64,000 bases of DNA, taken from an uncultured Kordiimonas sp. Lineage in GTDB: Bacteria; Pseudomonadota; Alphaproteobacteria; Sphingomonadales; Kordiimonadaceae. The notes below the pieces were generated by a model. That model searched no databases. It had not been told where the DNA came from and worked only from the letters and a program-made list of their open reading frames with translations. Location: assembly GCA_947492375.1 (NCBI GenBank), contig CANLMI010000001.1, forward strand, positions 682,001-746,000, read 5' to 3'. This document shows positions 33,662 to 36,113 of the stretch, in pieces. Position 1 is the stretch's first letter, and each line of letters opens with the position of its first letter. Both the position numbers and the translations under genes were made by a program.

Positions 33662-34264
33662 TTATTCAGCGTCAGTTTTTTCTTCTTCGCTTTCTTCAGT
33701 AGCTTCATCGTCAGATGCTTCAGTTTCTTCTTCTGCTTCTTCAACAAACTCTTCTTCAGCTTGATCTTCGTTAGTGTTAACGAGTGCACCACCAATTTCA
33801 AACTGTGTTTCTGCTTCTGCTTCAGAGCGAGCAATATTAACAATAACAGTTTCTGAAACTTCCGGGTGCAATGTGATCACAACATCATGAAGGCCAAGAG
33901 TTTTGATCGCACGATCAAGAACAACCTGGCTGCGGCCAATTTTAACACCAGCTTCTGTAACAGCTTCAGCAATATCGCGGCTTGTTACTGAACCATACAG
34001 TTGGCCTGATTCACCAGCAGAGCGAACCATAACGCACTTAAGACCAGCCATTTGGCCTGCAACTGCTTCAGCTTCTTCGCGGCGCTTAAGGTTATCAGCC
34101 TCAAGGCGTGCGCGCTCGTTTTCAAAGAACTGCTTGTTAGAGTCTGTCGCACGCATTGCTTTCTTCTGTGGAAGAAGGAAGTTACGGGCAAACCCATCCT
34201 TTACAGTTACTTCATCGCCCATTTGGCCGAGCTTAGCTACTCGTTCTAATAGGATGACTTGCAT
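33662..34264 (-). CDS. rplI: 50S ribosomal protein L9
   Basis: Elongated two-domain 23S rRNA-binding protein. The N-terminal domain has [11 protein letters not shown] and [17 protein letters not shown]. Residues up to about 150 cover the normal L9 length. The remaining ~50 residues are a strongly acidic Glu/Asp-rich tail ([12 protein letters not shown] and similar), an extension common in alphaproteobacterial L9. Last gene of the S6-S18-L9 operon, 21 bases after rpsR. Confidence 0.97.
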
Positions 34265-34285: not shown

Positions 34286-34516
34286 TTACTGAACGATGAA
34301 AGGCAAGAGCGCAACATTACGAGCGCGTTTGATTGCCTTGGCAAGTTCGCGTTGTTTCTTGGCAGAAACAGCAGTGATACGGCTTGGAACAATCTTGCCG
34401 CGCTCTGAAACATAGCGCGAGAGCAATTTTACATCTTTGTAATCGATTGTTTGTGCATTATCGCCTGAAAACGGGCATGTTTTACGACGACGGAAAAATG
34501 GACGGCGTGCAGACAT
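34286..34516 (-). CDS. rpsR: 30S ribosomal protein S18
   Basis: 76-residue S18 with the basic N-terminus [14 protein letters not shown], and the conserved [16 protein letters not shown]. It pairs with S6 on the 16S platform. Its ATG overlaps the rpsF stop codon by one base (TAATG), so translation is coupled to S6. Confidence 0.98.
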
Positions 34517-34905
34517 TAGCGTTGCTCCCTTCTGTCACCACGATCACCACGGTCGCCTCTTGGGCCGCGGCGCTCTTTGTCAGCTTTAGAGCGAAGTACG
34601 ATTGATTGACCTTCTTCATGCTCTTCAACACGGACAGTCATGTAACGGAGAACATCTTCGTTTAGACGAATTTGGCGTTCCATTTCAGCAACTGCTGCAT
34701 GTGGCGCATCGATGTTCAAAAGAACATAGTGGCCTTTGCGGTTTTTCTTGATACGGTATGCAAGGGTTTTAAGACCCCAGTATTCTGATTTAGCAACTTT
34801 GCCTTCGTTCTCTTCGATGATTTTCGAAAAGTCAGCAGTGATGCTTTCTACTTGCGAGGCGTTAATATCCTGCCGCGCAATGAAAACATGCTCATATAAA
34901 GCCAT
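34516..34905 (-). CDS. rpsF: 30S ribosomal protein S6
   Basis: 129 residues. N-terminal [12 protein letters not shown], the [12 protein letters not shown] central motif and N-E-D-V-L-R-Y are characteristic. The C-terminal ~20 residues are a basic/acidic R-G-D-R-G-D repeat tail. First gene of the operon, so it lies directly downstream of the candidate S6:S18 leader. AAGGAG precedes the ATG. Confidence 0.98.
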
Positions 34906-34931
34906 GCTTTTTCTCCTTTATGCTGATCGCT

Positions 34932-34952
34932 CGTTAGCACCCATTGCTAACG
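34932..34952 (-). promoter_or_regulatory. Hairpin just upstream of rpsF
   Basis: CGTTAGCA and TGCTAACG form a perfect 8-base stem with a five-base loop, 26 bases before the rpsF ATG. There is no U run, so it is not a terminator. It could be part of the S6:S18 regulatory leader by sitting next to the ribosome site. Confidence 0.5.
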
Positions 34953-34969
34953 CCTCCAGCCTTCTTTTT

Positions 34970-35000
34970 CCTGAATGTATATATGGATACATCGGTCAGG
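34970..35000 (-). promoter_or_regulatory. Candidate S6:S18-binding ribosomal leader
   Basis: Reading the minus strand: CCTGA, a bulged CCG, ATGTAT, a six-base loop, ATACAT, TCAGG. The outer arms CCTGA/TCAGG and inner arms ATGTAT/ATACAT pair perfectly and leave CCG bulged on one side. A CCG bulge flanked by a stem and a hairpin is the described S6:S18 leader motif, which mimics the 16S rRNA site and represses rpsF. It lies 65 bases upstream of rpsF. Confidence 0.72.
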
Positions 35001-35171
35001 AGGCGCTTCTTTATCGCTTTGTTTAAGGAAACACAAGGAAAAACGGGCGATTTACAAGAAAAAGTACAAAAGCTGTTATATTGTCTTGCAATTGGATATC
35101 GCTATGTGACATTCCGTAAGGTAAATAACGGATGCAATAGCTGTCCGGCTGTAATGATCAAGGGATAAGAT

Positions 35172-36113
35172 ATGACACGTGCTTTTGTATTTCCAGGGCA
35201 GGGCAGTCAGTTTATCGGCATGGGAAAAGCACTTGCCGAAGCGTCTGAAGCTGCAAGTTTGGTTTTTGAAGAAGTTGACGATGCACTAAGCCAAAACCTT
35301 TCCAAATTAATGTGGGAAGGTGAAGAGGATGACTTGCGCCTTACTGAAAATGCACAACCTGCATTGATGGCAACTTCTATGGCTGTTGTTCGTACAATAG
35401 AGAAAAACAGCGGTAAGAAGATATCGGATTTAGCAAGCCATGTCGCTGGGCATTCACTCGGTGAATATTCTGCGCTTGCAGCGGTTGGAGCTTTTTCGCT
35501 GGCGGATACCGCAAGGCTTTTGAAGCTTCGCGGGCAAGCAATGCAGCGCGCTGTACCAGTGGGTGAGGGTGCGATGGCTGCTATCCTTGGGCCTTCGTTT
35601 GACACTATTCTGGAAATTGTTAAAGAGGCATCACAGGGCGAGGTTTGCGTTGCGGCAAACGATAACGCTGACGGCCAGGTTGTTGTGTCAGGCCATAAGG
35701 GCGCGGTAGAGCGTGCTATTGAGATCGCCAAGTCAAAAGGGGCAAAGCGTGGTATGTTATTGCCCGTTTCCGCACCTTTTCATTGCCCATTGATGCAACC
35801 AGCAGCAGATGAGATGCGGGACGCGCTAGCGGATACAAAAATCACTGAACCTGCGCTTCCTGTAATTGCGAATGTTTTAGCGGCGCCAGTTGGTAATCCT
35901 GATGGTATTAAAAACTTGCTTGTGGAGCAGGTAACAGCATCTGTTCGTTGGCGTGAGAGCGTTGGCTCGATGACTTCACTTGGTATCACAGATATTGTTG
36001 AGGCTGGTGCAGGTAAAGTTCTGTGCGGATTAGCACGGCGTATTGATAAAAGCCTGAATGCTACCAATATTCAAGAAGCTGAAGATGTTGAGCGGTTTCT
36101 GGAAAGCCTATAA
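35172..36113 (+). CDS. fabD: Malonyl-CoA:ACP transacylase
   Basis: Loads malonyl units from CoA onto ACP for fatty acid synthesis. 313 residues with P-G-Q-G-S-Q at the N-terminus, the nucleophile elbow G-H-S95-L-G-E and the catalytic His in the A-P-F-H-C-P region. AAGG lies about ten bases before the ATG. It is divergent from rpsF and starts the run fabD-fabG-acpP-fabF. Confidence 0.98.
   Translation: MTRAFVFPGQGSQFIGMGKALAEASEAASLVFEEVDDALSQNLSKLMWEGEEDDLRLTENAQPALMATSMAVVRTIEKNSGKKISDLASHVAGHSLGEYSALAAVGAFSLADTARLLKLRGQAMQRAVPVGEGAMAAILGPSFDTILEIVKEASQGEVCVAANDNADGQVVVSGHKGAVERAIEIAKSKGAKRGMLLPVSAPFHCPLMQPAADEMRDALADTKITEPALPVIANVLAAPVGNPDGIKNLLVEQVTASVRWRESVGSMTSLGITDIVEAGAGKVLCGLARRIDKSLNATNIQEAEDVERFLESL

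Follow-up and report, generated by a model that had tools for sequence, protein, structure and literature searches.

The S6:S18 complex is a proven translational repressor of rpsF in Escherichia coli (PMC4647458), and it also binds the rpsF leader of Bacillus subtilis (PMC10931766). Mutation of the two conserved cytosines abolishes regulation, and helix H1 of the described structure may contain the Shine-Dalgarno sequence, a prediction that is backed by the authors' own data (PMC4647458). In this type (Matelska 2013, Fu 2014), represented by Rfam model RF02893 (RpsF_leader) and by E. coli, the 3′ side contains a stretch of 12 nt that ends in the CCG, one base before the AAGGAG strand that holds the Shine-Dalgarno sequence. 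A working rule of the r-leader field is that a known ligand tends to be reused by dissimilar leaders of the same operon, and the same source holds that the gene directly downstream predicts the ligand of an r-leader poorly (PMC7247131). That 2020 paper speaks, in the legend to its Fig. 1, of a "conspicuous absence" of the S6:S18 r-leader in the Alphaproteobacteria and mentions promising motifs that were then unpublished; these candidates possibly concern the same gap as the element described here, and no structure is given for them there. The Chlorobi S6:S18 r-leader of the same source comes from a different phylum and is likened to our element by description only, both being restricted to a lineage and lacking visible rRNA mimicry (PMC7247131). 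A further likeness by description only is to sra29 of Sinorhizobium meliloti, an RNA of ~110 nt that is a probable rpsF leader and thus an alphaproteobacterial rpsF leader detected as RNA (PMC2245857).

We analyzed a stretch of 64,000 nucleotides from an uncultured Kordiimonas sp. (hereafter, the window), in which the relevant operon lies on the minus strand. Downstream of the leader, Pfam domains give the gene order S6, S18, L9, corresponding to rpsF (34516–34905; PF01250, E 6.4e-33), rpsR (34286–34516; PF01084, and alignment) and rplI (33662–34264; PF03948 and PF01281). A gene with an acyltransferase domain (fabD-like) is divergent from rpsF-rpsR-rplI. The S18 encoded in the window retains, by alignment, residues K60, R61 and R63 of E. 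coli S18, which have a role in RNA binding (PMC4647458). A consensus promoter scan found nothing; the −10 boxes mentioned below were read by eye, and the transcript start is a predicted one, near 35000–35005.

A hairpin with a bulged CCG (34970–35000, minus strand) lies upstream of rpsF, and the original prediction regarded it as a likely S6:S18 leader of the described type. Its geometry is exactly as predicted, both by reading of the sequence and in the RNAfold structure, where the CCG is bulged. The 5′ strand consists of CCTGA (35000–34996), CCG (34995–34993) and ATGTAT (34992–34987), followed by the loop CCATAT (34986–34981) and a 3′ strand formed by ATACAT (34980–34975) and TCAGG (34974–34970); the outer stem is lengthened by one further pair, T35001–A34969, and 64 bases intervene between the hairpin and the ATG of rpsF (34905). 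When folded alone (39 nt), the hairpin has an energy of −11.0 kcal/mol with a z-score of −3.7, equalled by 2 of 200 shuffles. A perfect hairpin of 5 bp, a 3-nt 5′ bulge and 6 bp occurs a single time on both strands of the 64-kb window; in shuffled windows (n = 30) the same geometry arises 0.2 times per window with any bulge, and never with CCG. The hairpin is genuine and cannot be put down to chance.

Its identity with the published CCG-bulge leader is another matter. The window places a leader directly 5′ of rpsF-rpsR, as in the RF02893 type, the two-stem shape with its bulged CCG is perfect and beyond chance, and the outer stem is preserved in a sister genome, all of which favor the assignment. 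The Rfam model itself, for which the E. coli K-12 leader served as a positive control (110 bits), gave no match at the gathering threshold in the whole window and none up to E 10 over 34700–35300. It matched none of 114 genomes of the class and, among 14 control genomes, only E. coli; 35 candidates per genome were scored in these searches, so the negatives outside the window are weak. The CCG of the window stands on the 5′ strand, the side opposite to that in RF02893, and the hairpin makes no contact with the Shine-Dalgarno sequence. Nor is the CCG conserved. In L003, the one other genome of the genus that was compared, the outer stem is kept (UCCUG/CAGGA) and the CCG is absent; the 64 bases 5′ of the conserved core element (34920–34964, described below) show no folding advantage over shuffles there (z −0.53; the window has −2.91). 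Among 20 other family leaders that were folded, 10 lack a CCG in these 64 bases and none has it as a stem bulge, with L014 carrying it in a hairpin loop. The original prediction had named a lack of support for the CCG in close relatives as a ground for refutation, and as regards the CCG this is what the relatives show. In L035, L038 and L039 the core is kept and a TATAGA lies 17–19 bases 5′ of it; should this be a −10 box, a 5′ hairpin would not fit into these leaders. The published type is thus a very improbable identity for the hairpin, and this reading is largely refuted: a structured RNA leader 5′ of rpsF is well supported, as had been predicted, while the CCG hairpin as its binding site, and the assignment to the described CCG type, did not hold up.

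Many leaders of the window's family and of family f5, the latter probably Sphingomonadaceae judging from leader likeness, have a hairpin between the promoter read by eye and the core, with quite different sequences; some of the hairpins chosen in this survey extend into the promoter. The 46 bases 5′ of the core have a slight folding advantage over shuffles, with a mean z of −1.08 in family f1 (10 of 20 below −1) and of −1.62 in f5 (22 of 38 below −1). The CCG hairpin of the window is therefore best placed within a class of upstream hairpins of variable sequence. It is probably a real accessory hairpin and not a binding site, it probably sits near the 5′ end of the transcript, and it may act in mRNA stability or spacing.

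Comparison of relatives locates the conserved, covarying part of the leader in the second hairpin, together with the surrounding helix and internal loop. The perfect hairpin at 34932–34952, which had been predicted between the CCG hairpin and the ribosome site, is exact by sequence and by fold. Its stem, P2 (34945–34952 paired with 34932–34939), covaries and closes the loop AUGGG (34940–34944); an internal loop AGG/AGCGA (34953–34955 and 34927–34931) joins it to P1 (34956–34960 paired with 34922–34926), of consensus GCYGG/UCRGC. We refer to this core element (34920–34964, minus strand) as the type-1 rpsF leader and to its covariance model as R1. It is followed by the Shine-Dalgarno sequence AGGAG (34913–34917), 4 bases after P1 and 7 before the ATG. 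The R1 match in the window scores 57.1 bits and is the sole match up to E 10; R1 was built from 42 rows that include the window. The core folds with a z-score of −3.6 in the window, and none of 200 shuffles is as good. In the minimum-energy fold starting from 35004, both hairpins are present and AGGAG is unpaired; in a fold starting 5′ of the likely transcript start, AGGAG pairs with UUCCUU.

The core and the RF02893 leader are alike in occupying the 5′ untranslated region of rpsF-rpsR, adjoining the ribosome site, with S6:S18 as the presumed ligand. They differ in their conserved bases, which are GGAG and AGCGAUC in the window core, and in helix arrangement. On its 3′ side the RF02893 type has CCG/CC, next to the Shine-Dalgarno helix, and it holds the Shine-Dalgarno sequence inside a helix, whereas no CCG is present in the core as read from 34920 to 34964 and AGGAG is predicted to be unpaired. 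No Rfam threshold was reached at the core or anywhere in 20 related loci. A freshwater-2 match that overlaps the core (34903–34950) scored 17.3 bits against the 49.9 needed, with E 4.2, and was taken as chance.

The 7 perfect pairs that can form in the window between CGCCTCC (34999–35005) and GGAGGCG (34951–34957) raise the prospect of a switch, in which this pairing, or one between the 5′ region and the Shine-Dalgarno sequence, would open or hide the ribosome site. An identical CGCCTCC occurs in L003 and L016; most other family leaders have GCGTCC or a different sequence there, as read by eye. The pairing of each 5′ region with its own Shine-Dalgarno region is no better than with a swapped one (p 0.85 in f1, n = 20; p 0.40 in f5, n = 38), a test that is blind where both strands are conserved, and the predicted fold retains both hairpins. 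A switch of this kind is very improbable.

The type-1 pattern was recognized in 56 of 69 leaders from the window's order, as AGCYGGAGG-stem-usually (C)AUNN-stem-AGCGAUCRGC or close variants, shortly 5′ of the Shine-Dalgarno sequence. These 69 leaders, the window included, come from 69 of the 140 genomes of the order with rpsF; L024 was skipped, being a gene fragment without its upstream part. One type-1 leader, L022 (genome G055), has a long insertion in P2, with a match of 84 bases against the usual ~45, which suggests that the length of P2 is free.

Covariation was assessed first in a sequence-only MAFFT alignment (A1) of 42 of the 56 type-1 leaders. It omits near duplicates identified by eye (L005, L007, L009, L011, L013, L016, L017, L021, L037, L059, L068 and L069), as well as L022 for its long insert and L034 as irregular. 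Standard pairs fill 90.8% of the pair cells, compared with 67.5% for shuffled partners and 20–50% (maximum 49.6%) when the strands are slid. Both sides are changed in 129 cells, against 48.9 in shuffles, where cells tally sequences and not evolutionary events. All 8 pairs of P2 show two-sided change, and P1 does so in one pair only (U-A in 24 of 42 rows, C-G in 18 of 42), a change that may represent as few as two events, one in family f5 and one in L027 of f6. Counted by pair, two-sided change is not in excess (9 pairs against 8.4 in shuffles; 262 of 500 as high), and the distal pairs of P2 are broken in 8–13 of the 42 rows. A second alignment (A4), which was fitted to R1, contains 72 leaders (69 distinct), namely 54 of the 56 order leaders (without L009 and L021) and 18 of 21 matches at named loci (without L110, L111 and L189, duplicates or near duplicates). 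In this model-fitted alignment 90.6% of the pair cells are standard, 219 are changed on both sides and P1 is 100% paired; by pair there is again no excess of two-sided change (shuffles 8.5; 292 of 500 as high). In f1 the core clearly surpasses its shuffles in fold energy (mean z −2.07, 14 of 20 below −1); in f5 the advantage is weak (mean z −0.97, 19 of 38 below −1). Despite these weak spots, the comparative evidence identifies the core as a conserved structured RNA with covariation support.

Covariation of the stem as RNA also weighs against a translated upstream open reading frame, for which the GGAGG, followed at ribosome-site distance by an ATG in the P2 loop, might be taken (MGANERSA-stop in the window). 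An ATG lies within the element in 33 of the 56 leaders and is missing there in the other 23. Relative to rpsF, the frames are spread over all three classes; in 23 of the 33 no stop precedes the rpsF start. We regard such a reading frame as extremely improbable.

The placement of the element is highly regular. R1 has exactly one match in 25 of 29 genomes of the window's family, and no rpsF was found in any of the remaining four (G087, G093, G096 and G099). By coordinates, 24 of the 25 matches lie directly 5′ of rpsF, and the 25th, in G079, is followed by an rpsF start that is interrupted by the end of a contig. The 13 of 69 order leaders in which type-1 is missing comprise all 7 leaders read from family f8, all 3 from f4, the single one from f3 and 2 of 6 from f6, and R1 likewise found no element in these 13 leaders. 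Among the best 80 of 573 named rpsF loci, R1 matched 21, all at E 4e-6 or better and within 80 bases of the start. These are labelled Sphingobium, Citromicrobium, Sphingorhabdus, Erythrobacter, Altererythrobacter, Porphyrobacter, Novosphingobium, Sphingomonadaceae, Erythrobacteraceae, Sphingomonadales and Rhodothalassium, together with one Alphaproteobacteria MAG (M2405) and one Proteobacteria MAG; Rhodothalassium salexigens is listed in the window's order, and M2405 in the window's family. The 59 other loci of these best 80, with labels mostly of Rhizobiales or Rhodospirillales, have no R1 match at E 0.01; unlike the window, the Rhizobiales-labelled loci read among them have no type-1 match in the leader. 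No leader match was found in 28 rpsF loci from the wider class. In a search across the class, 6 of 337 genomes matched, five of them from the window's order and the sixth being L078 (29.2 bits, E 9.9e-4); 18 candidates per genome were scored, so the negatives of this search are weak. Two weak matches, in L156 (E 0.3) and on the opposite strand of L119 (E 0.67), are located outside rpsF leaders, as are five more from the search of the wider-class loci and the 13 order loci (best E 0.067); all of these were taken as chance. As far as these comparisons reach, type-1 is the leader of one alphaproteobacterial group and not of the other groups read.

Other sequence patterns were seen 5′ of rpsF in the loci read. 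A different leader, CTCCTTGCC-hairpin-GGCTAGGYCCGG...CCGGRCC...ACAGCCATAAGGAG, is present in 28 of 177 leaders (L045, L080, L082–L084, L087, L088, L090–L092, L094–L099, L103, L104, L106, L107, L126, L134, L139, L144, L146, L151, L177 and L182), with the labels Azospirillum, Inquilinus, Nitrospirillum, Kiloniellaceae and Rhodospirillales. Its CTCCTT is able to pair, by eye, with the Shine-Dalgarno sequence AAGGAG, in an E. coli-like layout with an extra helix. Many Rhizobiales-labelled loci among L112–L187 share a further leader, CCGTGTCTCCGCTCTCGACC...GGCTTAGCCGCCGAA...GAAAGGC, or CCGTGTCTCCGCCTTCGA...GGGCCTT..., 5′ of rpsF, as read by eye, and GCCTTTC could pair there with the Shine-Dalgarno-like GAAAGGC. 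Within the window's own order, the f8 leaders without type-1 (L028, L029 and L049–L052) have another conserved leader, roughly CGGTTAATNNTGTAATGYG...TGATATTCG...CRCCCCG, again by eye.

For the function of type-1, the reading that we favor, with a probability of roughly 0.65, is that of a ribosomal leader with the core at 34920–34964 as its working part, to which S6:S18 binds and thereby lowers translation of rpsF-rpsR-rplI. S6:S18 as ligand and translation as the controlled step follow from the shared-ligand rule together with the repression of rpsF by S6:S18 in E. coli; the direction of the effect and the points of contact are likewise putative. An excess of S6 and S18 over 16S rRNA would lead the complex to bind the core, putatively through P1, the internal loop with its conserved GGAG and AGCGAUC strands, and perhaps the P2 loop. 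The bound complex would keep the core closed, with P1 just 4 bases 5′ of AGGAG, where a bound protein would be expected to clash with the 30S subunit. The subunit would thus be kept from the rpsF start, and less rpsF-rpsR-rplI would be translated. The retention of K60, R61 and R63 in S18 speaks for this reading, and the unpaired state of AGGAG in the predicted fold speaks against it.

No clear rRNA mimicry is visible in the core sequence, which has no unpaired CC of the kind that S18 reads in 16S rRNA and in the E. coli leader. A 16S rRNA gene was found in the window's assembly neither by RF00177 nor by a conserved pattern, the completeness being given as 100. The same pattern matched 2 of 60 genomes of the order and failed in 58; it required CC at the position that we take to be the S18 site, so a match shows merely that CC is present in those two genomes. 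A GGARG-like likeness between 16S rRNA and the leader was judged by eye to be unspecific.

The lack of a visible copy of the S18 site would also suit an autoregulatory leader for another ligand, such as L9, S18 without S6 or a non-ribosomal factor. The operon includes rplI, and we know of no leader that responds to L9. The downstream gene is moreover a poor guide to the ligand (PMC7247131), whereas the action of S6:S18 is proven on the rpsF leader of E. coli (PMC4647458) and its binding is established for that of B. subtilis (PMC10931766). A different ligand is, on balance, unlikely. Type-1 is most likely a lineage-specific ribosomal leader for translational repression by S6:S18 that is distinct from the published switch, an interpretation drawn from comparative analysis and precedent. 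No published description of the element was found in a literature search that missed most subscription papers.

More tentatively, the Sphingomonadales and their relatives may control S6:S18 by a leader that is unrelated in structure to the classical one and carries no copy of the 16S CC, and the alphaproteobacterial rpsF leader may have been reinvented three to four times, as type-1 and as the Rhodospirillales-like, Rhizobiales-like and family-f8 leaders. If this is true, S6 and S18 recognize several RNAs that have no relation to one another. For the alphaproteobacterial gap that was flagged in 2020, type-1 provides a concrete element of 45 nt, for which a covariance model and the taxonomic range are given here. 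Binding of S6:S18 to type-1, if it occurs, would add to the examples of a single pair of ribosomal proteins that recognizes RNAs of unrelated structure.
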